The notes beneath the pieces are model-generated. The model saw only the letters and a list, made by a program, of their open reading frames with translations. It did not search any database and was not told where the DNA came from. DNA of 64,000 bases, from assembly GCA_027487845.1 (NCBI GenBank), contig JAIYCV010000042.1, positions 186,001-250,000 of the forward strand. Direction: 5' to 3'. Below are positions 54,538 to 64,000 of the stretch, one piece after another (position 1 is the stretch's first letter; each line of letters begins with the position of its first letter). Position numbers and translations under genes: made by a program. The DNA comes from Flammeovirgaceae bacterium. Lineage in GTDB: Bacteria > Bacteroidota > Bacteroidia > Cytophagales > Cyclobacteriaceae.

Positions 54538-55920
54538 CTAAGGACTAACTTTAACAGAATGCCATAATTTTCTTTTAGTATAAAAAATGTAAGTAACCCA
54601 AGTAAGCCCAATCAAAAAGGTTGAAATAAAATTTGAAATAATTATACCCCCAATCCCAAACCATATTGCAGAAAAGTAAGTTAAAATGAAAGTGATTATT
54701 GCTCCTATCACTGAATTTAACAAAAGAGGTTCCATTTTATGAGCACGTAAATAAGAAGCCATCGAAAAAATTAGCTGATTTGTAATTGTGGTAAGGCCTG
54801 CGAATATAACCCACTTTACAGGAAGGAATCTACCCCCTAATTCACTAAAGAGGTGAAAATAATCATACTGGATTAGACCAAGGATAGTCACAAATGAAAC
54901 GACTCCAATAGTAATCAATAAAAAAGACTGTTTCATGGCCTTAAAAAACAACAAATCAAGTTCCTTATAGTTTTTACGTGCTATCAATACGGAAAACGTA
55001 GGGACTTTTGTACTTACCCAGGCCATGGCAATAACGGATATACCATTAAATGCCGTTATTGTTATTCCCATTTGTCCAGCGATGACTGACCCTTGAAGTG
55101 CAAAAACAATTGGATTTACAATTTGAAAGATAAAATATCCACTTAACCAACTTAATGCAATCCTCCATTGAAAAGGAAAGATCTCCTTTTTCCAGCTGAT
55201 TTGTATAAACCTATCGAAACTATCCCATATTTTACTTAACAGGCGCCTAAATTGATTTGTGCATATCCAAAAAAATAAAGTGATAAAATTACTAAGAGCA
55301 AATAGACCAAGACTCATTAAACCTAAATCAAAGCCAATGCTCATGAAGAGCACCGTGTACGAAATGACGCTCTGAAGCGTTCTGAATTTGGCAACTTCTT
55401 TAACTTTATTAAGACCTTCCAGAAACGGAATATAGGAAGACACGAAAAGATTCAGAGAAGTTGCCAACATGAGTAAAATCCAAGGGATTTGCCACGACAC
55501 GTTTAAACTCAAATCGCTAAAGGCGTTAAAAAAAACAAAACCACCGAGCGTAACTAGGCCGAATAACAGTACAGCACCCCAAGCATACCATTTCAGAATA
55601 AATCGAAATAAAGAGGCAATCCTGGCAATGTTTGTTGTCTCGCCAATTATTTCACTACTAGGTGTTAGAGAAGTAAAGGCAAATTCATGGGCCACAAATT
55701 GAGTAATCACCATTGAAAGCCCCAATTCAAAAAAGACCTGCAATGCAGCTATACTACTGAATGTATAATAATATCCCTGTTCTTCTTTTGTTAAATACTT
55801 GGAAATAAGGTACATCACTAACAAGCTACCTACAGCTTGTACAACTCTATTAGAAACACTAAAAGCTATTGACCAGTCTATTCCAAACTTATGAAGAAGA
55901 TTTCTCAAGACCCTTTTCAA
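54538..55920 (-). CDS. Polysaccharide flippase (Wzx/MATE-like), 460 aa
   Basis: Twelve to fourteen hydrophobic helices beginning SIAFSVSNRVVQAVGSLLVM and VMYLISKYLTKEEQGYYYTF, the usual start of Wzx-type exporters. It would flip lipid-linked repeat units across the inner membrane. It starts at TTG 55920, which overlaps the stop of the NeuB-like gene (TTGA); no ATG is close. Sequence is divergent, as normal for this family. Confidence 0.82.
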   Translation of the reverse strand: MKRVLRNLLHKFGIDWSIAFSVSNRVVQAVGSLLVMYLISKYLTKEEQGYYYTFSSIAALQVFFELGLSMVITQFVAHEFAFTSLTPSSEIIGETTNIARIASLFRFILKWYAWGAVLLFGLVTLGGFVFFNAFSDLSLNVSWQIPWILLMLATSLNLFVSSYIPFLEGLNKVKEVAKFRTLQSVISYTVLFMSIGFDLGLMSLGLFALSNFITLFFWICTNQFRRLLSKIWDSFDRFIQISWKKEIFPFQWRIALSWLSGYFIFQIVNPIVFALQGSVIAGQMGITITAFNGISVIAMAWVSTKVPTFSVLIARKNYKELDLLFFKAMKQSFLLITIGVVSFVTILGLIQYDYFHLFSELGGRFLPVKWVIFAGLTTITNQLIFSMASYLRAHKMEPLLLNSVIGAIITFILTYFSAIWFGIGGIIISNFISTFLIGLTWVTYIFYTKRKLWHSVKVSP

Positions 55921-57011
55921 ATCCCTCTGTCATAAATGAGCTTCCTTAAGGAATCAATTTTGGCATACGGAGAATCAATATAATCTATAAGGATCATTCC
56001 GTCCTTTGGAACGTCTTGTGTGAAAATCTCGCCATTTTTTAATTCACGTACAGATAATTGACCTTTGTGTAGGGGCACTGCCAAATAAAAATAATCCTCA
56101 AATTCCTCGTTTCTTACAATATGCCCTTTAGGGATCTCTTTTTTAGCATAGACTCCTCTAACAAGAGCATCCAAATACTTTATTTCTTTTTCAGGGTTGA
56201 TCCTTTTCCTATCAGATGGGCCACCACACATCTCAATAGCTTTTTTATAAGCTTTAAACCAAGTATCAACCTGAGCTGATGTTGAATTATATCTCGGCAT
56301 CTCATAGCCCTCTTTTGGGCTATCAATATGACGCTCAAATGTTCTTGCGCCTTTCGCATATGCCATCATGATTGAACTAGACCAATCGTGATATTCATGC
56401 GTTGAAAGGCCAACCACAATGCCAGGATATCGGTTTCTAATAAAATCAATTTGATTGAGTTCTAATTCATAATCCTCAGATGGATATACCGACACACAGT
56501 GATTTAAAGCAATTGGAATGTTTCTGTTTTGAAAAAACTTTACAACATCATCCATATCTTTTAAAGATGACCCTCCACTGGAAAGAATAACAGGTTTCTT
56601 GGTTTTGGCTATTTTCTCCAGTAATGGCCAATCGTTTATATCAGAACTTGCAATTTTGATGATTGGCAAATTGAATTCCTGACACAGATCAACGGAAGCC
56701 TCGTCAAAAGGTGTTGACATGGGAATGCATCCCGAATCAACAATTTTGTCAATCAGAATTTTATATTCTGCTTTAGTAAGTTTCTTTTCAGTGGTTTTCT
56801 TTATGTATTTGATATCCTTATTATCCTTGTACTCAGGATGGACAAAGGAGTCCATATCTCTGAATTGAAGCTTGATAGCTGCTTTCACGTTATTAAAGCG
56901 TATGACCTGGGAAAACTCTTCAATCATCTCTATTCCCCGTTTCACATCCCCCAAGTGGTTGTTCGCCAGTTCTAACACAAACAGGTCTTCAAATATGCTA
57001 TTGTTGATCAT
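55917..57011 (-). CDS. NeuB-like nonulosonate (sialic-acid-type) synthase, 364 aa
   Basis: N-terminal TIM barrel (about 1-285) of the NeuB family: LANNHLGDVKRGIEMI, MSTPFDEASVDLC, IKIASSDINDWPLLEKIA, ILSSGG and LNHCVSVYPSEDYELELN. A C-terminal SAF/antifreeze-like domain (about 295-364) includes RGVYAKKEIPKGHIV. The enzyme joins PEP to an amino- or hydroxy-hexose to give a nine-carbon sugar acid. Some usually conserved positions differ (GLSTHEYHDW in place of the VGxSDHT motif, and no DHxxS), so the substrate may be unusual. It is followed by a HAD hydrolase gene upstream in the transcript. No CMP-sugar synthetase is seen within the window. Confidence 0.88.
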   Translation of the reverse strand: MINNSIFEDLFVLELANNHLGDVKRGIEMIEEFSQVIRFNNVKAAIKLQFRDMDSFVHPEYKDNKDIKYIKKTTEKKLTKAEYKILIDKIVDSGCIPMSTPFDEASVDLCQEFNLPIIKIASSDINDWPLLEKIAKTKKPVILSSGGSSLKDMDDVVKFFQNRNIPIALNHCVSVYPSEDYELELNQIDFIRNRYPGIVVGLSTHEYHDWSSSIMMAYAKGARTFERHIDSPKEGYEMPRYNSTSAQVDTWFKAYKKAIEMCGGPSDRKRINPEKEIKYLDALVRGVYAKKEIPKGHIVRNEEFEDYFYLAVPLHKGQLSVRELKNGEIFTQDVPKDGMILIDYIDSPYAKIDSLRKLIYDRGI

Positions 57012-57013
57012 CG

Positions 57014-57664
57014 TTATTGGATTTTACTTTGCAATTGACTTATATTATGTACAATAAATGTTGGGTTCGCCTTTTTCAGATTTTCAATACTATCATATCC
57101 GCCTGAAACAGAAATTGAATCGATTTGGTTGGCTTGCGCTGCAATCACATCATGCCTCGTATCGCCAATCATAACTGTTTTTGTTAGACGCATGTGATGC
57201 GCTTCAATGAGATATTGGATGAGTTCACTTTTAGAAAGTCTTTTATCTTCGAATTTATCCGGGCTAACTATCTCTTTGAAGAAATTAACCCTCATCTTTT
57301 CCAGGATTCTTAAAGTAGGTTTGTACGCCTTATTGGTCACCAAAAAAAGATGCTTATTTAAATTAACTAGTTGAGATAAAAGTTGAACGGATCCCTCCAT
57401 TTCTCTTGTTAATTCATAAGAAGAATTATCATACCTATTTCGAAATTCCTTGATAATCTCCTGCTTGTTATTTTCATCTAAGTCAGGAGTTAGTTCTTCT
57501 ATCATTTCAATTAAGGGAGGGCCTATTTGATTTCTGGTGACAAGTACACGTCTATTTAAAATAGTCTGATATGAGTTTTCCAACGACAACTTAATGTCGC
57601 CAAAAGAATCTATGAGCGTTCCATCTAAATCAAAAAGAAAATTGCTGTATTTGCCTATATTCAA
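57014..57664 (-). CDS. HAD-family phosphatase (phosphoglycolate-phosphatase-like), 216 aa
   Basis: HAD motif I NFLFDLDGTLIDSFGDI (about 8-24, nucleophile Asp), a helical C1 cap, motif II/III area LFLVTNKAYKP and motif IV VMIGDTRHDVIAAQAN. It starts at TTG 57664. Two bases separate it from the NeuB-like gene. Paired with a NeuB homologue it could remove a 9-phosphate as in the phosphorylated sialic-acid/KDN routes, or act on another sugar phosphate of the cluster. Confidence 0.92.
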   Translation of the reverse strand: MNIGKYSNFLFDLDGTLIDSFGDIKLSLENSYQTILNRRVLVTRNQIGPPLIEMIEELTPDLDENNKQEIIKEFRNRYDNSSYELTREMEGSVQLLSQLVNLNKHLFLVTNKAYKPTLRILEKMRVNFFKEIVSPDKFEDKRLSKSELIQYLIEAHHMRLTKTVMIGDTRHDVIAAQANQIDSISVSGGYDSIENLKKANPTFIVHNISQLQSKIQ

Positions 57665-57727: not shown

Positions 57728-58855
57728 TTACCCTTCTCGGGGAATTGCATACAAAACCAGATCAAATCCACTATTTCCATGTGACCTAATATAAAACTTA
57801 TAGTTAAGGTCCCATGACTTAATCAGCAATGGTATCTCCCATAAATGCTGAGGAGTGTGGTAAAGGCAAATGCCTAATCGTGGACGAAATTCGTTTATCG
57901 TTGCCCGGGCACCAAGAAGACCATCTATTTCCGCTCCCTCAATGTCCATTTTAATAAAATTGGGCCTAAAGTTTGGTATAATATGATCTATTGCAACTCC
58001 TAAAATCGTGTTTGTCCCTATTTCATTTACGCTACTAGCCTCTGTGCTTTCAGAATTAAATTTGAGGTACTCTGTCTTAGACCAAACGGCACAAGGGAAA
58101 AGATAATTTTCCTCTGCGATCCTCCCACGATTTTTCTTACTAAACTCTACCAATTTATTAAAATTCAAAAGATCCGGTTCAAATGAAGCAACGGCTTCAC
58201 AACGAACGCCTAATTTTTGCATTGCTAATAAGGTGTCGCCATCGTATGCACCTCCGTCAATAAATCTTAACTGTTCTGAGGTTCTCTCTAAAGTTTTCGA
58301 GAAATATTGTGTATCAAGTCCTTCTGGTTCGATCAAAAAATCCGCATCTCCCGTAAGTCTATATTTCAAATTCGACTCAAGGATCAACTTACTTTCCTTA
58401 TCCTCCAGCAGGTGTTTAATCTCTTCAATTTGATCGATGTAACTTTTGTATTTGTCAATATTTCCAAGCCAGAATTTGTCGCCTAATTGATCTGAGAAGA
58501 AATGATGGAACTGAACGAAACTTATAACTTGTCCAAAGCCTTGTTCTTTTAGTAAACTAACAATTGGCACTAGATTGACATCCCTATTAAAAACTGCAGC
58601 AATTGCGAGACATTCACTTTTAAGCGCTTTCGGAAGCGCGTTTTCTTCTGGATGGAGAACCGGAATTCCTCCTACAAACAGTCCTTTAGAAGCCGAGCGA
58701 TCAATAAACGCCACCACCTCATGGTTAGAATGTTTTTTTAAAATCTTTAATACTTCTCTACCCATATTTCCAGCCCCGTATATTACAACTTTAGAAAAGT
58801 TGTGTATCGAACCAACTGGATAACTTGTTGATTTTATTAGTTCTTTAAGTTTCAT
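57728..58855 (-). CDS. FkbM-family methyltransferase with N-terminal Rossmann-like domain, 375 aa
   Basis: Residues about 22-105 form a nucleotide-binding-like domain (VVIYGAGNMGREVLKILKKH) of the type found in sugar-modifying proteins. Residues about 190-375 are the FkbM SAM methyltransferase: FIDGGAYDGDTLLAM, SFEPDLLNFNKLVEF, FIKMDIEGAEIDGLLGA. The enzyme probably O-methylates a sugar of the repeat unit. The GxGxxG domain may bind NAD or a nucleotide sugar. A 63-base gap separates it from the HAD gene. Confidence 0.92.
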   Translation of the reverse strand: MKLKELIKSTSYPVGSIHNFSKVVIYGAGNMGREVLKILKKHSNHEVVAFIDRSASKGLFVGGIPVLHPEENALPKALKSECLAIAAVFNRDVNLVPIVSLLKEQGFGQVISFVQFHHFFSDQLGDKFWLGNIDKYKSYIDQIEEIKHLLEDKESKLILESNLKYRLTGDADFLIEPEGLDTQYFSKTLERTSEQLRFIDGGAYDGDTLLAMQKLGVRCEAVASFEPDLLNFNKLVEFSKKNRGRIAEENYLFPCAVWSKTEYLKFNSESTEASSVNEIGTNTILGVAIDHIIPNFRPNFIKMDIEGAEIDGLLGARATINEFRPRLGICLYHTPQHLWEIPLLIKSWDLNYKFYIRSHGNSGFDLVLYAIPREG

Positions 58856-58859
58856 AAAT

Positions 58860-60665
58860 CTAAAATTGCTTAGCTGGAATCAACAGATTACTCAACAACT
58901 CTTCCTTTTCCAGGAAAGGGAACATATCTTCCAATGGAGCTGAGACCATTTTTCCATCGGGAAGTTTTTTCGAACTTAATTTTGGTTCGAATAATTGCTC
59001 CACATCCAACACCACATCACACAATACCGGTCCGGGTGTTTCAAGTATCTCGTTCAATTGTTTTTCAAAATTCACGCCTTCAATTCGAAAAGTCTTTAAT
59101 CCATAAGCATTTCCAATCTTCACCATATCAGGAAACGAAACACCCGACTCAGGACTGCTGCCAACCGAAAGACCGAAGAAACTTTTTTGTGTAGATTTGA
59201 TAGACAAATACCCATCATTATTCAACACAAAAATCTTGATGGGCAGGTTATGATGAACCACGGTTTGTAGTTCCTGAATGTTCATCTGAATACTGCCATC
59301 ACCCGCCATGCAAATGATTCGTTTGTCGGGCGCAGCAAAGGAAGCTCCAATCGCAGCTGGCAAATCAAACCCCATGGACGCGGAACCTGAATTGCTGAAT
59401 AGGCGCTGTCCCTTTTTTATTTGCGAAGTCTGGAAGGTAACAATACACGCGGTGGCATCTCCGCAGACAATTACATCATCTTTTGTTAGGTTGTTTTGTA
59501 ATGTATGAATGAAGTAATAAGGGTTTAACGGGTTTTGTGGATCCTGATGCTTTTGCTGAAGCACCGGATACTTCAACAAACGTTCCTTGCACCACTTAAC
59601 CCAAGAAGCAAACTTTTTTGCCTGGTAATCCGACTTGTCTATTTGTCTTTCAAGTTCCTCCAGAAAGAGTTTTGCATCACAATGAATAGGAAGATCCAGA
59701 TTCATGGTCGGCTTTTTTAGCTCGGCCTCATCTGCATCCACTTGTATTTTATAGGCATGTCTTGCAAAATTTTCCCAGTTATAACTTACCTGTCTGATCG
59801 GCATTCTGCTACCGACCATAAGAACCAAATCGCTATTTTGAACAGTGAAATTACCCCCCCTGTCTCCAATACTACCTTGCTTGCCGCAATAACATGGATG
59901 ATCAGATTCTATAATATCGTGTGACCATGAAGTTGTAACAGGAATTTTAAGTTTGTTCACCACTCGTTCAAAAACATCCATAGCACCGGCTAGCCGTATA
60001 CCTGTGCTTCCAATAATAGACGGCCTCTCGGCCGTTCTAATTTTATCAAGAACCTGTTTACAAAGGTCAGGTAAGTTCTTTATATACGAAGGGGCGTCCT
60101 CTTTCGGGTCATAGTCTTTCAAGGTTAACTCATCGATCAGACTTCCCTGAACGTCTACCGGAACATCAATCCAACACGGACCAGGGCGGCCCGAAGTTGC
60201 AATAGTCAATGCTTTTTTTAGCACATATTTTATCTCATTGGGATCGGTCACCATTACAGAGTACTTGGTGATCCCCCTCACCATGGAAATAATATCTACT
60301 TCCTGGTCACCTAGTTGTCTCAGTCCCGGAATATTGTGAGAAGATAGAAGTGTTTCTCTTTTTACCTGGCCTGAAATAATCAACATCGGTATGGAATCTG
60401 TAAAAGCCCCGAATACGCCATTCAATGCATTTATTCCACCGGGACCAGTGGTGACATTCACCACCCCAATATTCCCTGCAGTACGAGCATATCCTTCGGC
60501 CGCAATAGCGGAAGCTTGTTCGTGATGGTTACATACATACGTTATTCGCTTCTCACGTCCAATAGCATCATTGAGGTGCATGGCCCCACCGCCTGTCACA
60601 AGAAAGACATGTCTTACTCCAACATCAGCAAGCGTTCTAAAAATAAAATCTGATACCTTTATCAT
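58860..60665 (-). CDS. Thiamin-diphosphate-dependent enzyme, acetolactate-synthase-like, 601 aa
   Basis: Three-domain TPP fold. The N-terminal PYR domain carries the catalytic Glu (CNHHEQASAIAAEGYAR, about 45-61) and GPGGINALNGVFGAFTDSIP. The central domain has SIIGSTGIRLAGAMDVF. The C-terminal PP domain has the TPP motif CMAGDGSIQMNIQEL plus NNDGYLSI. Pyruvate decarboxylation with transfer of a two-carbon unit is the ancestral chemistry. In surface-sugar clusters beside E1-type dehydratases, YerE is a known member that adds acetyl to a CDP-3,6-dideoxy-4-keto sugar. A true acetolactate synthase would usually have an ilvN-type regulatory subunit next to it; none is present. It is four bases from the following FkbM gene. 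Confidence 0.92.
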   Translation of the reverse strand: MIKVSDFIFRTLADVGVRHVFLVTGGGAMHLNDAIGREKRITYVCNHHEQASAIAAEGYARTAGNIGVVNVTTGPGGINALNGVFGAFTDSIPMLIISGQVKRETLLSSHNIPGLRQLGDQEVDIISMVRGITKYSVMVTDPNEIKYVLKKALTIATSGRPGPCWIDVPVDVQGSLIDELTLKDYDPKEDAPSYIKNLPDLCKQVLDKIRTAERPSIIGSTGIRLAGAMDVFERVVNKLKIPVTTSWSHDIIESDHPCYCGKQGSIGDRGGNFTVQNSDLVLMVGSRMPIRQVSYNWENFARHAYKIQVDADEAELKKPTMNLDLPIHCDAKLFLEELERQIDKSDYQAKKFASWVKWCKERLLKYPVLQQKHQDPQNPLNPYYFIHTLQNNLTKDDVIVCGDATACIVTFQTSQIKKGQRLFSNSGSASMGFDLPAAIGASFAAPDKRIICMAGDGSIQMNIQELQTVVHHNLPIKIFVLNNDGYLSIKSTQKSFFGLSVGSSPESGVSFPDMVKIGNAYGLKTFRIEGVNFEKQLNEILETPGPVLCDVVLDVEQLFEPKLSSKKLPDGKMVSAPLEDMFPFLEKEELLSNLLIPAKQF

Positions 60666-60669
60666 AAGC

Positions 60670-61890
60670 TTAAACTATTAAACAGTCTTTTAATCCGTAA
60701 GTTGGATTTGTTAAATGATACTTCTCCTTGATATCCCTTCGAATAGGTGTTTCATGAATGGTGGAGGTAATTAATATTTTTATCTGAGGATCAACATCAA
60801 CAAGTTGAGATGGATGCTTAACTAAAATGTTTTGAATTGACTTATTAGTGAGAATTGGATTTGAATCAACAAAATTAAGTATGCTTAAAGATCTTAGTTC
60901 GGACATAGCTAATAATTTCATGGTCAATTGTCCTGTCCCCCAAACGAAAATATCTTCTCCCTTTTTGAAGTTCTTTTTCAGGAAAGAATTAATATTATCT
61001 ATTACCATCTGTGATTTTGCGATGTAGTCACTGGTCTTTTCTTCTATTTCATTGTCAACTGCAAAATCGAAAGAAGTACTTGGCTCAACCTTCTGGTAAA
61101 ATGCATAAAGAGCAGGATATGGCACTGATGGAGCAGATTCAATAGTTTTAAAATCTCCTTTTATTTTTTTGAATCCAGAGGTTTCAAAGAGGTTATCAAG
61201 TGAAACTTTTGTAAAGTGGTTTATATGCTCCGTGTTGAAATCTTGAAAAGGAGAAGTAATAAAGTCCACATATCGTGCTGCGTCTGGTACTTCGATATAC
61301 AAATGCCCGTTTTCATTTAGAAACCTACTTACCGTATTTATACAACCTTTAAGGTCTAAAATATGCTCCATCACATGTGACAAGATAATCAGATCAAATT
61401 TTCCGAGTGAATCAGGCATATCAAAAAGGCTTGCCTTATGTGCCTCAATAGATAGCTGGTTGGTAATGTAGTTAACACAAGCGGCTGAGGGATCAACACC
61501 AACAACCTTTAAAAATCCAAGTTTTTTTATTTCCTTCAAAATGCCACCATTGGCGCAGCCCACGTCCAAAATCCTGAGAGACTTATCTGAAAATGTCTTC
61601 TCTATCAGGCCTGCGACTGCCTCCATCCTTATCGAATCGAAACTTGCCTCTCCGCCTCCAGTACTGGTATGATTATCTTCATATTTTGAGAAATCAGAAT
61701 AGTACACATCATAATCATGCTGGGTCACTGCTGAATCTGCAAATAGAAATTTACACCTCTTGCAAAGAACTACATCATATCCATCTCTTAGTGGGTGTTT
61801 ACCCGGCAAAATAAATTTTTGATTGTGCAAAAATAAGCCTTCCTCAAATCCACAAACTGGACAAGTTCTTTGGAGCGTTTTCATTTTCAT
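60670..61890 (-). CDS. Sugar C-methyltransferase-like SAM-dependent methyltransferase, 406 aa
   Basis: N-terminal zinc-ribbon-like region CPVCGFEEG (about 10-18) with VLCKRCKFLF (about 41-50), the mark of the NDP-hexose C-methyltransferase family. SAM domain with ILDVGCANGGILKEI (about 107-121) and LIILSHVMEHILDL. The C-terminal domain (about 300-406) has VWGTGQLTMKLLAM and a Rossmann-like end. Members such as TylC3 add a methyl to C-3 of deoxyhexoses. It is four bases from the TPP gene. The activity is an inference from domain architecture. Confidence 0.87.
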   Translation of the reverse strand: MKMKTLQRTCPVCGFEEGLFLHNQKFILPGKHPLRDGYDVVLCKRCKFLFADSAVTQHDYDVYYSDFSKYEDNHTSTGGGEASFDSIRMEAVAGLIEKTFSDKSLRILDVGCANGGILKEIKKLGFLKVVGVDPSAACVNYITNQLSIEAHKASLFDMPDSLGKFDLIILSHVMEHILDLKGCINTVSRFLNENGHLYIEVPDAARYVDFITSPFQDFNTEHINHFTKVSLDNLFETSGFKKIKGDFKTIESAPSVPYPALYAFYQKVEPSTSFDFAVDNEIEEKTSDYIAKSQMVIDNINSFLKKNFKKGEDIFVWGTGQLTMKLLAMSELRSLSILNFVDSNPILTNKSIQNILVKHPSQLVDVDPQIKILITSTIHETPIRRDIKEKYHLTNPTYGLKDCLIV

Positions 61891-62924
61891 TTATTTGAAT
61901 TCCACTTTATTGTTCTCCTTATGCTTTCCGTTAAATCAAAGTTAACAGACAAGCCTAATTCATTCCTTGCCCTATCAATCGAAGGGACATATTGCTCTTT
62001 TTCTTTTTGCGGATCTGGCTTTTGGCGAACGATATATTCCACTTTTTTATCCATAAAGCAATGAGATACATTTTTTGCCAATTCTTCGATGCTAACTGCT
62101 TTATCCGATCCGACATTATACGCTCTTTTTGACTCGCCTTTAACCAGCATGGTAAGTAGCCAAATCACAAGGTCACCACTATAAAGATAAGACCGCATAG
62201 GAGTTCCATCTCCCTTTATTTCAATTGTCTTTCCTGCCAATCCATCGCGGATGAAATTTCCAATTGCAAAATGTATATTGAGATTTAAATAGGGCCCCAC
62301 AAAGGCAAAGCACCTGGCAATTGGGATTTCTATTCCAAATTTATCTGCGTATACTGAACACATAAGTTCAGCCAGTCGTTTGCTCTCCGCATAAACATTC
62401 TTTGAGTTAAGAGTGTCCGGGCCGTTCATATATTGCTCTGAGGCCAACGGAACAGATTGTTTTCCATACACTGCACCGGAGCTAATGAACAAAACTTTTT
62501 TTGCGACACAGTTACGTGAAAATTCCAAAACCCTTCTTGTCCCCTCTACAATGGTGTCCATCATTTCAAATGGATTAGAATTATTCAAATGCTCGCTCGC
62601 TTCCGTTGCTGCGTGAATAATAAAGTCGAATTTCTGATTGGGTAATGCAAAGTTTTTTACATTCCCTTCTACATAATGAATAATTCCAGTATTGAAAAGC
62701 TGTGGAAATTGCGTTTCAAAATTTGACACATTTCTGGTTAAGACTGTGAGTTCAAGATTAAGTGAAAGCATTCTACTGGCATACACCAACGCCTCAAGCA
62801 ACCATTTTCCAAAAAAACCAGTTCCGCCCGTTATAAAAATTCTCTTACCCCTTAACTGACTCCATACAAAGGGATCCATCAGTCTGATAATGTCTTCGAG
62901 ATCATCTTTCAGAGGGTTGTTCAC
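61887..62924 (-). CDS. NAD-dependent sugar epimerase/dehydratase (extended SDR), 345 aa
   Basis: NAD-binding GxxGxxG in IFITGGTGFFGKWLLEAL (about 28-45), catalytic Ser/Tyr/Lys region FISSGAVYG and YAESKRLAEL (YxxxK), and the C-terminal NVGSDKAVSIEELAKNV. The start is GTG 62924. Its stop overlaps the methyltransferase ATG by four bases. Beside an E1 dehydratase it may serve as the 4-keto reductase (as in abequose/paratose synthases), or act as a dTDP/CDP-sugar epimerase. Confidence 0.9.
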   Translation of the reverse strand: MNNPLKDDLEDIIRLMDPFVWSQLRGKRIFITGGTGFFGKWLLEALVYASRMLSLNLELTVLTRNVSNFETQFPQLFNTGIIHYVEGNVKNFALPNQKFDFIIHAATEASEHLNNSNPFEMMDTIVEGTRRVLEFSRNCVAKKVLFISSGAVYGKQSVPLASEQYMNGPDTLNSKNVYAESKRLAELMCSVYADKFGIEIPIARCFAFVGPYLNLNIHFAIGNFIRDGLAGKTIEIKGDGTPMRSYLYSGDLVIWLLTMLVKGESKRAYNVGSDKAVSIEELAKNVSHCFMDKKVEYIVRQKPDPQKEKEQYVPSIDRARNELGLSVNFDLTESIRRTIKWNSNK

Positions 62925-62929
62925 TCGGA

Positions 62930-64000
62930 TTATTTTAATATCTCTTTAAACGTCTTGATCATATAATCTATCATTTGATCATTGATCATAGGCGTTACCC
63001 CAATCCAGAAGGTGTGATTCAAAACGATTTTAGCATTTTTGAGTTCACCAACTACTCGGTATTCGTAATTCTTGAAGTATGGTTGATTGATAATGTTTCC
63101 ACCGAACAACAGTCGGGTAGCAATCTTAGCTTCAGTGAGCTTATCTATCAAATCGTTTCGGCTAATGCCCGCCTCTGGCTTAATTGTTATCAGGAAACCA
63201 AACCAGGAAGGATTAGAATTAGCGGTGGCAACCGGCAAAATTAATTTATCAGAGAGATCACTAAGCCCGGCTTTCAGTCTATCAAAATTATGTCTTCGAA
63301 TCCTGACGAATTCATCAAGTTTTTCTAATTGTGCAAGCCCCAAAGCCGCTTGCATGTCAGTTATTTTAAGATTATAGCCCAATCGTGAATACGTATATTT
63401 GTGGTCGTAGCCAAAGGGAAGGTCACCCAATTGCCAGCCAAATCGCTTCTTACAGGTATTATCTTTTCCTGGCTCACAATAACAATCTCTTCCCCAGTCG
63501 CGGAAAGATTCCATGATTTTTTTTAGTCTCCAATTCGTAGTAAAGACAGCACCTCCCTCTCCCATGGTGATGTGGTGAGCCGGGTAAAAACTTATGGTCG
63601 CAATGTCTCCGAACGTACCGACATGCTTGTTATTATAAGTGGCTCCAAGCGCATCACAACAATCTTCAATCAACCATAAATTGTGTTTCTTGGCAATTTT
63701 TGAAATTTCCTCTACCTGAAATGTATTTCCCAGTGTATGGGCTATCACTATTGCTTTTGTTTTTGGTCCAATTGCCTCCTCCAATCTGGTTATGTCAATT
63801 TCATATGAGGGGATATCAATATCTAAGAAAACTGGAACAAGTCCATACAATAAAAGTGGATTGATAGTCGTGGGGAATGAAACCGAAACAGTGATAAATT
63901 CATCTCCAGGTTTTAAAGCCCTATCACCTAATTCCTCGGCAGTCAACGTGGCGGCCGCCACCAGGTTTGCTGACGAACCGGAATTTACGGTGATCAGGTT
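62930..64000 (-). CDS. rfbH: CDP-4-keto-6-deoxyglucose 3-dehydratase (E1, RfbH/DdhC-like), 5' end beyond the window
   Basis: DegT/DnrJ/EryC1 aminotransferase fold. The lysine position is His ([16 protein letters not shown]), the hallmark of the PMP-dependent E1 dehydratase, which removes the 3-hydroxyl instead of transaminating. [19 protein letters not shown] carries Cys residues suited to the [2Fe-2S] cluster of E1, and [20 protein letters not shown] is present. The frame stays open to 64000, where it reads [14 protein letters not shown], so the start lies outside. The enzyme makes CDP-3,6-dideoxyhexoses with an E3 reductase, which would be expected upstream, off the edge. Confidence 0.92.

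Follow-up and report, generated by a model that had tools for sequence, protein, structure and literature searches.

Which sugar is built by the minus-strand operon at the right end of the window (the whole stretch of DNA analysed, 64 kb in length), and how long is the branch that it would carry? Its genes point most probably to an unusual branched sugar destined for a surface polysaccharide, and those beside the four first described suggest a branch of more than two carbons, supplied by a sialic acid synthase relative that has taken on a new role. We consider it reasonably probable that the product is a 3,6-dideoxyhexose, activated with CDP, whose C-4 carries a long branch made by way of a custom 2-keto-3-deoxy acid donor.

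Operon layout and the activated sugar

The preliminary description had placed four minus-strand genes next to each other, and the ORF coordinates agree with its order, strand and spacing (Table 1). A 5-base gap separates the E1 gene from the SDR gene, the SDR and methyltransferase (MT) genes overlap by 4 bases and 4 bases lie between the MT and ThDP genes, making one tight operon. This operon extends further left than described earlier, through FkbM-type, HAD, NeuB-like and Wzx-like genes, the last of which overlaps the NeuB-like gene by 4 bases; its protein gave no Pfam match.

Table 1. Genes of the operon within the window.
Feature	Positions	Strand	Model
RfbH/E1, CDP-4-keto-6-deoxyglucose-3-dehydratase, 3' part	62930..64000	-	NF011936
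Extended SDR	61887..62924	-	PF01370
SAM methyltransferase (MT), four-Cys N-terminal site, distantly TylC3/MtmC/TcaB9-like	60670..61890	-	PF13489
YerE-like ThDP lyase	58860..60665	-	PF02775/02776/00205
FkbM-type methyltransferase, PglD_N-like N-terminal part	57728..58855	-	PF05050, PF17836
HAD phosphatase	57014..57664	-	PF13419
NeuB-like PEP-dependent synthase	55917..57011	-	PF03102, about 139-140 bits
Wzx-like flippase, next polysaccharide-operon gene	54538..55920	-	NF041503, 78 bits, below cut-off 300

The E1 gene crosses the window end and starts at window-equivalent position 64261 (genome contig C26, locus L004), and the complete protein has 443 residues. Its in-window fragment reaches 587 bits with NF011936, the RfbH equivalog (cut-off 423). 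As described earlier, it has a His in the PLP-lysine motif (11 residues, from 227), at what we take to be the PLP-Lys position, and a Cys-rich segment, with Cys at 201, 202, 260, 262 and 270 as the presumed [2Fe-2S] ligands. The supply of CDP-3,6-dideoxy-4-keto-hexose is well supported because a CDP-glucose 4,6-dehydratase and a glucose-1-phosphate cytidylyltransferase, both above equivalog cut-offs, precede E1 to the right of the window. The preliminary description took the absence of such genes and of an E3 reductase from the flank and the genome as counting against its reading, and for E3 this applies in part: a genome-wide FAD_binding_6 search returned one protein only, a PaaE-type one, and a dedicated E3 (N-terminal ferredoxin domain plus FAD reductase) was not found; eight Fer2 matches also turned up in the genome, two of which were inspected in full. 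By family models, the YerE-like ThDP gene is encoded together with the CDP-glucose genes and RfbH, and the earlier proposal of a branched 3,6-dideoxy sugar pathway is supported.

The SDR is proposed to reduce the branch ketone (or a sugar keto group). The MT has profile matches to 4rv9 (E 3e-12) and 3ndi (E 7e-10), its MT domain and C-terminal part aligning with the former at positions 90-361 of 400. Pfam shows MT domains only, with no match in the window MT to PF08421 or PF08484, which we take to be the zinc and C-terminal models flanking the TylC3-type family. Four Cys are invariant in 12/12 aligned relatives, and the alignments keep Glu-His and have Asn at the Tyr position, again in 12/12; this is presumably the catalytic Tyr of a TylC3-type Tyr-Glu-His set. 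MT domain, C-terminal part and four-Cys N-terminal site are like those of the TylC3/MtmC/TcaB9 sugar 3-C-methyltransferases, and we regard the protein as a distantly TylC3-like, putative C- or O-methyltransferase.

The ThDP enzyme and its proposed donor

All three Pfam domains of ThDP enzymes are present in the ThDP protein, as are the intact GDG..NN and catalytic Glu ascribed to it earlier (HHEQ at 47, with Glu 49; GDG at 455; NN at 482). Its best-scoring solved relative is 8rph, with 431 bits over residues 2-590, compared with 242 bits for 5ahk, which we take to be PpYerE, and 233 bits for the best plant AHAS. In a quick tree with long branches on PpYerE and PoxB, from which a partial E. coli Gcl row was left out, the protein falls together with JanthE and PpYerE, while IlvB and IlvI lie elsewhere (SH-aLRT 85, 93, 98); it thus does not group with true acetolactate synthases. 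On this evidence the window protein is YerE-like and a predicted C-branching lyase, of the same ThDP lyase sequence family as ErwE and JanthE. The latter, from Janthinobacterium sp. HH01, is the protein of 8rph (excerpt of PMC12188165) and has CDG where the window protein has GDG. The best match to JanthE among 399 genomes, a set that does not include its own, was 53%. The plasmid collection gave no match to the ThDP enzyme (limit 1e-80) or to PpYerE (limit 1e-100), and a search with PpYerE of 369 genomes from the class of G395 (Sulfuriferula), run without a positive control, gave nothing at E 1e-110.

In the available text of PMC12188165, JanthE accepts 4-hydroxy-2-oxovalerate with benzaldehyde, and pyruvate too, and its physiological substrates are described as not identified. 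As donors, ErwE accepts 4-hydroxy-2-oxo acids but does not accept pyruvate, and MMAR_2332 behaves alike (PMC12247030, in part). JanthE and ErwE both add donors longer than pyruvate onto ketones, as these excerpts have it (PMC12188165, PMC12247030).

Gene neighbourhoods were surveyed for the best 80 of at least 560 ThDP relatives, sampled by similarity. In 72 of these 80 loci the neighbourhood of the ThDP gene includes exactly one of three 2-oxo-acid-forming C-C enzymes (NeuB-like in 29, HpaI-like in 32, DmpG-like in 11); two types never occur together, and eight loci have none. Five of the eight have less than 1 kb on one side; L074 has a cut DmpG-like end; in L084 and L058, where flanks are present, no partner of any of the three types occurs. 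All three are likewise missing from 4 of 12 JanthE-seeded loci (L127, L128, L134, L136). These counts omit four NeuB-seeded loci (L109-L112) and apply identity floors, leaving uncounted NeuB-like proteins below 38% (L057, L069, L134), HpaI-like ones below 40% and DmpG-like ones below 25%. The last floor also leaves out L125 (24.9%), DmpG-type by family models and so labelled in the tree; this row is the nearest to JanthE and has an acetaldehyde dehydrogenase and a 4-hydroxy-2-oxovalerate aldolase, both over cut-off. Fisher values computed from the neighbourhood counts take no account of relatedness and are given no weight here. The HpaI- and DmpG-like sets keep their catalytic motifs. On a quick ThDP tree, 11 partner changes are needed, the minimum possible being 2. 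Distances among the NeuB-like proteins are correlated with those among the ThDP proteins (rho 0.82, 39 pairs, 0/999 permutations as high). In the reverse test, the NeuB-like protein has matches at E 1e-60 in 5/395 same-phylum genomes, this one included, and in the other four a ThDP relative lies 4 to 3092 bases away.

Accessory genes vary across the same 80 loci, the best of at least 560. A HAD gene from any of three clusters is near the ThDP gene in 31/80 and an AroB-like gene in 23/80, never together with a HAD; 10 of the 29 NeuB-type loci have neither. SDR relatives (at least 38%) occur in 24/80, with SDR and MT fused in a single frame at L007, and FkbM-type relatives in 10/80, nine of them NeuB-type. 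An MT relative near the ThDP gene in 13/80 means that the MT-ThDP combination, which the preliminary description did not know as described, is not unique. RfbH was seen in 16 of the 29 NeuB-type loci, a set that includes several short contigs, and the acceptor may therefore differ elsewhere.

The HAD and NeuB-like genes in the operon suggest a longer, purpose-made 2-keto acid donor, and together with the partner survey they indicate that the two-carbon, yersiniose-like donor first proposed is probably wrong. In that version pyruvate is the donor from which the ThDP enzyme forms a two-carbon acetyl branch, and the NeuB-like, HAD and FkbM-type proteins serve another sugar of the polysaccharide. 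RfbF, RfbG, RfbH, ThDP and SDR genes do stand together here, and pyruvate is the donor of YerE, the first characterised enzyme of its kind (PMC12247030, in part), and is accepted by JanthE (PMC12188165, in part). However, we would expect a yersiniose cluster to have no donor synthase and this one has a NeuB-like gene, co-inherited with the ThDP enzyme by the distance correlation; the window protein is nearer to JanthE than to 5ahk by bit score; and the single donor-type enzyme near most of the sampled ThDP genes lowers this reading to an unlikely one.

The NeuB-like protein

The longer-donor reading assigns the synthase step to the NeuB-like protein, which scores 122 bits against the NeuB_NnaB equivalog (cut-off 400) and 119 against PseI (cut-off 340). 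Its best-scoring structure is 3g8r (222 bits), presumably from Chromobacterium, which is 62% to L131, belongs to the same NeuB-like group and was deposited as 'probable spore coat polysaccharide biosynthesis protein E'. Literature searches found no paper under the 3g8r code and no biochemistry on the 3g8r-type subfamily. In alignment, eight positions to which we ascribe the PEP and metal site roles are unchanged in 39/39 rows of the subfamily. Acceptor-side positions are changed. Asp247 of NeuB is replaced in the subfamily and kept in the genome's other NeuB-family protein. Acceptor-side positions 134, 288, 74 and 184 differ in that protein too, and by themselves are therefore no mark of a non-sialic enzyme. 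The window protein thus shares with sialic acid synthase the NeuB Pfam domain and the PEP/metal positions, but lies far below the equivalog cut-off, has a changed acceptor side and is linked to a ThDP gene. By these sequence comparisons we propose that it represents a subfamily apart from sialic-type NeuB and is the synthase of the 2-keto-3-deoxy acid donor, with the HAD phosphatase proposed to dephosphorylate this acid or the branch.

A nonulosonic acid, in which the NeuB-like and HAD proteins make Kdn or a sialic-like acid that is CMP-activated as a separate residue, would account for the family membership, and in some pathways a NeuB enzyme acting on a phosphorylated substrate is followed by a HAD phosphatase. 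Yet no CTP_transf_3 (CMP-sialate-synthetase type) match lies in the 64-kb window; the genome has three (C25, C29, C32), and at a distance of about 5 kb from the one on C25 there is a NeuB-family gene whose Pfam score is higher (260 versus 140 bits). Four NeuB rows that we labelled sialic-type also branch apart in a quick tree (SH-aLRT 100, long branches). Together with the equivalog scores and Asp247, these observations removed a sialic acid role as the leading reading, and we judge it improbable. The idea that the ThDP protein is a genuine acetolactate synthase, or some other housekeeping decarboxylase located here by chance, to which the top NCBIfam models and the narrow lead of 5ahk (presumed PpYerE) over plant AHAS might point, was rejected as highly improbable on the tree and on the model scores (TIGR00118 356 bits, cut-off 538), and the genome has a separate, stronger PF02775 match at C15 (182 bits).

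Proposed pathway and known branched sugars

In the pathway that we favour, RfbF, RfbG and RfbH, genes assigned by family models and with reactions established for these families, would provide CDP-3,6-dideoxy-4-keto-hexose. The NeuB-like enzyme would combine PEP with an aldehyde, probably phosphorylated, into a 2-keto-3-deoxy acid, from which the HAD protein would strip the phosphate. The YerE-like enzyme would then decarboxylate the acid and attach the resulting 2-deoxy acyl unit at the C-4 ketone, which would become a tertiary alcohol; the SDR would reduce the ketone so introduced, and both methyltransferases would decorate a product that is predicted to be caryophyllose-like and not yersiniose-like.

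More tentatively, and somewhat short of probable, higher-carbon branched sugars may be built in this modular way widely, one ThDP ligase receiving its donor from one of three exchangeable synthases (the non-sialic NeuB subfamily, an HpaI-type or a DmpG-type aldolase), with phosphate then removed by one of two modules, either a HAD phosphatase, the type in this operon, or an AroB-like cyclising phospholyase paired with an SDR. If so, the NeuB subfamily would constitute a new PEP-dependent donor synthase, and loci of the AroB type would form a DAHP analogue by ligation and close it to a cyclitol on C-4; we know of no described class of sugar with a cyclitol attached there. Donor type would be directly predictable from the gene next door, a rule that proposes a function for a NeuB-like group already represented by a crystal structure (3g8r) and predicts, for many phyla, sugars with long branches and possibly carbocycles in place of the short branches that would otherwise be guessed. 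YerE-like enzymes have been studied for their ability to make chiral tertiary alcohols, and a survey found more than 200, the vast majority without a known sugar structure (PMC12247030, in part). Our literature search, whose scope did not take in the primary ErwE, JanthE and YerE-survey papers, found, among the papers listed, none linking YerE-like enzymes with NeuB or an aldolase, and the excerpts of the M. marinum literature searched held no mention of 'aldolase' or 'ilvB'.

The yersiniose pathway of YerE/PpYerE has the same CDP-3,6-dideoxy-4-keto-hexose supply and ThDP-dependent C-branching. The window operon adds to these a NeuB-like gene, a HAD gene and two methyltransferases, and its donor is predicted to be longer. 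The closer parallel to the predicted product is caryophyllose, from the lipooligosaccharide of Mycobacterium marinum, a 3,6-dideoxyhexose whose 4-C branch is a 2'-deoxy polyhydroxyalkyl chain, as predicted here. That branch is given as 1,3,4,5-tetrahydroxyhexyl in the available part of PMC5706390, and the caryophyllose enzyme MMAR_2332 has an ErwE-like donor preference (PMC12247030, in part). Caryophyllose is attributed to a YerE-like enzyme and has a 2'-deoxy branch, matching what the pathway proposed for the window would produce.

The operon and its CDP-sugar supply

ORF reading of the window, bases 186001-250000 of contig C26 in a 4.55 Mb genome whose gene content suggests a member of the Bacteroidota, confirmed the row of four minus-strand genes in the preliminary description, with ThDP enzyme, methyltransferase, SDR and E1 dehydratase (RfbH) separated by 4–5 bases or overlapping. 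The E1 gene is truncated at the window end and encodes 443 aa in L004, this genome's own named locus; the fragment scored 587 bits against the RfbH model (cut-off 423). The CDP-glucose genes for which the preliminary description proposed a check to the right of position 64000 are both present upstream of E1 in L004 and both exceed their cut-offs, namely CDP-glucose 4,6-dehydratase (TIGR02622, 451 bits, cut-off 278) and glucose-1-phosphate cytidylyltransferase (TIGR02623, 424 bits, cut-off 300). Past them lie seeming GDP-fucose-, dTDP-rhamnose- and UDP-sugar-type genes, so named from translations only, without family models. The E3 reductase expected with them in the flank or genome did not appear: Fer2 and FAD_binding_6 profile searches of this genome found no dedicated E3. 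Fer2 gave eight matches, two of them examined at full length, and FAD_binding_6 a single protein, on contig C44, carrying both domains in PaaE order. This PaaE-type protein, which is no true E3, weakly matched only 2/96 loci when used as the query, so the lack of an E3 beside E1 may be usual.

Leftward of the four genes, at small gaps, are genes for an FkbM-type methyltransferase, a HAD phosphatase, a NeuB-like protein and a Wzx-like flippase, which the preliminary description had not included and which change the reading of the operon. The class of pathway it proposed, a branched sugar made with E1 and a ThDP enzyme, is right; the two-carbon, yersiniose-like branch is probably wrong.

Coordinates of the operon genes (window) and of features in related loci (L) and on contig C25 of the same genome
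Feature	Location	Strand
Wzx-like flippase	window 54538-55920	minus
NeuB-like protein	window 55917-57011	minus
HAD phosphatase	window 57014-57664	minus
FkbM-type methyltransferase	window 57728-58855	minus
ThDP enzyme	window 58860-60665	minus
Methyltransferase	window 60670-61890	minus
SDR	window 61887-62924	minus
E1 (RfbH)	window 62930 onwards	minus
SDR–methyltransferase fusion	L007:2837-5110	
AroB-like gene and SDR	L046:12821-14556	
GT2 gene	L025:14593-15684	
GtrA-like gene	L045:15276-15671	
CTP_transf_3/NeuB-family cluster	C25:16797-23023	

The ThDP enzyme and the NeuB-like protein

All three ThDP domains are present in the ThDP protein (Pfam). The closest solved protein by phmmer is 8rph (431 bits over residues 2-590), followed by 5ahk (242 bits), slightly above plant acetolactate synthase (233 bits); we take 5ahk to be the lyase PpYerE. 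8rph is named JanthE in PMC12188165. In the comparison with IlvB-type references proposed earlier, a quick tree of 103 rows, the enzyme is YerE-like: JanthE, PpYerE and the window group are separated from the genome's IlvB-like protein and from IlvB and IlvI of E. coli, with SH-aLRT values of 85, 93 and 98 on successive branches. The PpYerE and PoxB branches are long, making the exact placement of PpYerE unsure. The protein scored 356 bits against the acetolactate synthase model (cut-off 538). JanthE has a CDG motif whereas the window protein has GDG; in relatives L129-L133 and L111, SDG (five rows) or TDG (one row) replaces GDG, a further variant.

The NeuB-like protein scored 122 bits against the NeuB model (cut-off 400) and 119 against PseI (cut-off 340), and the nearest structure is 3g8r (222 bits), with SiaC/NeuB second (94 bits). 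NeuB residues Lys53, Thr110, Lys129, Ser132, Ser154, Ser213, His215 and His236 are retained in all 39 rows of the subfamily, and Glu134, Asp247, Phe288, Asn74 and Asn184 are substituted; we take the former to serve PEP and metal and the latter the acceptor side. The substituted positions alone are weak evidence, since the NeuB-family protein on C25 keeps only Asp247 of the five. In a quick tree the rows labelled sialic-type (1xuu, C25, L127, L134) split off on long branches with SH-aLRT 100, and 3g8r falls among the ThDP-linked NeuB-like rows (62% to L131). NeuB-like distances track ThDP distances (rho 0.82 across 39 pairs; 0/999 permutations as high). Taken together, the kept and substituted positions, the tree and the distances indicate that the PEP chemistry is probably retained, that the acceptor probably differs from that of NeuB, and that the NeuB-like gene is co-inherited with the ThDP enzyme. 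The C25 gene (260 bits) lies about 5 kb from a CTP_transf_3 gene, and a 287 aa frame close to them weakly matches TPP_enzyme_C.

Donor-type partners of ThDP relatives

A search through 84,980 species genomes returned at least 560 ThDP relatives, the best 80 of which were kept as named loci; their titles cover Bacteroidota, Desulfobacterota, Cyanobacteria, Planctomycetes, Verrucomicrobia, Acidobacteria, Chloroflexi, Nitrospirae, Firmicutes and others. Comparison of the genes around it, by ORF clustering and by tblastn, showed three partner types near the ThDP gene, assigned from one representative each to PF03102 (NeuB-like), PF03328 (HpcH/HpaI-like) and PF00682 (DmpG-like). All three families form 2-oxo acids through C–C bond formation. 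At fixed thresholds, these best 80 of at least 560 loci hold 29 NeuB, 32 HpaI and 11 DmpG partners, exactly one in 72 loci, two in none and none in eight. Five partnerless loci (L027, L034, L064, L065, L071) have less than 1 kb on one side, and L074 retains the truncated end of a DmpG-like gene; the flanking DNA present in L058 and L084 holds none of the three types. Within this best-80 set the partner lies within 2 kb of the ThDP gene in 23/29 NeuB, 31/32 HpaI and 11/11 DmpG loci, and on its strand in 27/29, 32/32 and 11/11. The labels require 11 changes on the ThDP tree (minimum possible, 2), indicating repeated partner swaps, within the limits of a quick tree. Alignments retain the HpaI-like Glu and Asp in 33/33 rows and the DmpG-like RDG and HxH in 11/12 (the twelfth is gapped there), positions presumed catalytic or metal-binding.

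Mutual exclusion also holds for three subfamilies of SDR encoded near the ThDP gene: among the best 80 of at least 560 loci, 59 have exactly one, 21 lack all three and not a single locus has two. In the same set a GT2 (PF00535) cluster (42/80 loci) and a GtrA-like protein, named by sequence (11/80), recur downstream of the ThDP gene, which may point to side-branch transfer of the GtrA/GtrB kind in other species.

Out of sample, the NeuB-like query (E 1e-60) matched 5/395 same-phylum genomes, this genome included, and all four others carry a ThDP relative (40-52% identity) at gaps of 4, 567, 1116 and 3092 bases. A JanthE query matched 13/399 genomes of the order of Sulfuriferula (G395). The 12 regions taken, one per matched genome except G395, whose region is that of L042, gave six NeuB-like, one HpaI and one DmpG (L125) partners and four without (L127, L128, L134, L136); these four belong to the more distant relatives of the ThDP enzyme. 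By translation, L127, of which L128 is a near-copy, contains DegT-, NeuC-, NeuD- and SpsE-like genes, while L134 has one that is SpsE-like; the ThDP relatives of these three loci perhaps perform a branching step in nonulosonic-type loci. The DmpG-like match of L125, at 24.9% identity just below the set threshold, was confirmed afterwards by family models: acetaldehyde dehydrogenase and 4-hydroxy-2-oxovalerate aldolase both exceed equivalog cut-offs, and the DmpG communication domain is present. Such a pair yields 4-hydroxy-2-oxopentanoate. L125 is the row nearest to JanthE (53%) and shares the CDG motif. JanthE accepts 4-hydroxy-2-oxovalerate, with benzaldehyde as acceptor, according to PMC12188165, and this match between aldolase pair and donor use is the best single biochemical agreement.

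A proposed pathway and its known counterparts

The operon probably encodes a variant YerE-like branched-sugar pathway whose donor comes from a NeuB relative and whose branch is not two-carbon. RfbF, RfbG and RfbH would supply CDP-3,6-dideoxy-4-keto-hexose, and the NeuB-like protein would condense PEP with an aldehyde, likely phosphorylated given the adjoining HAD phosphatase gene, into a 2-keto-3-deoxy acid. The ThDP enzyme would decarboxylate this acid and join the 2-deoxy acyl unit to C-4, and the SDR would reduce the resulting ketone. The methyltransferase matches MtmC-type 4rv9 and TcaB9 in profile searches; a Pfam search found no match to the flanking domains of that C-methyltransferase family, and in alignments Asn replaces what is presumably the catalytic Tyr. 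In L007, relatives of the SDR and methyltransferase are fused in a single open frame (PF01370 + PF13489), which ties the two to one path.

The NeuB-type loci among the best 80 of at least 560 have a HAD gene in 11/29 cases, an AroB-like gene in 8/29 and neither in 10/29. Across that whole set 23/80 loci pair an AroB-like gene with an SDR close to the ThDP gene, and none of them also has a HAD phosphatase, which occurs in 31/80. The L046 copy scored 404 bits against TIGR04425 (cut-off 400), and the conserved residues, which we take to be the DHQ-synthase metal ligands, are retained in 25/25 AroB-like rows from 96 loci; the protein may close the branch into a cyclitol.

Caryophyllose is described in PMC5706390 as 3,6-dideoxy-4-C-(D-altro-1,3,4,5-tetrahydroxyhexyl)-D-xylo-hexopyranose, and the branch so given has the 1'-OH and 2'-CH2 that a 2-keto-3-deoxy acid donor would leave. 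According to PMC12247030, the preferred donors of ErwE are 4-hydroxy-2-oxo acids, pyruvate not being used, and those of MMAR_2332, an enzyme that has been linked to caryophyllose, are similar. By analogy, we infer that these cases extend to the operon in the window, which would add to this known type of YerE-like branched-sugar pathway a new element, a NeuB relative as donor supplier.
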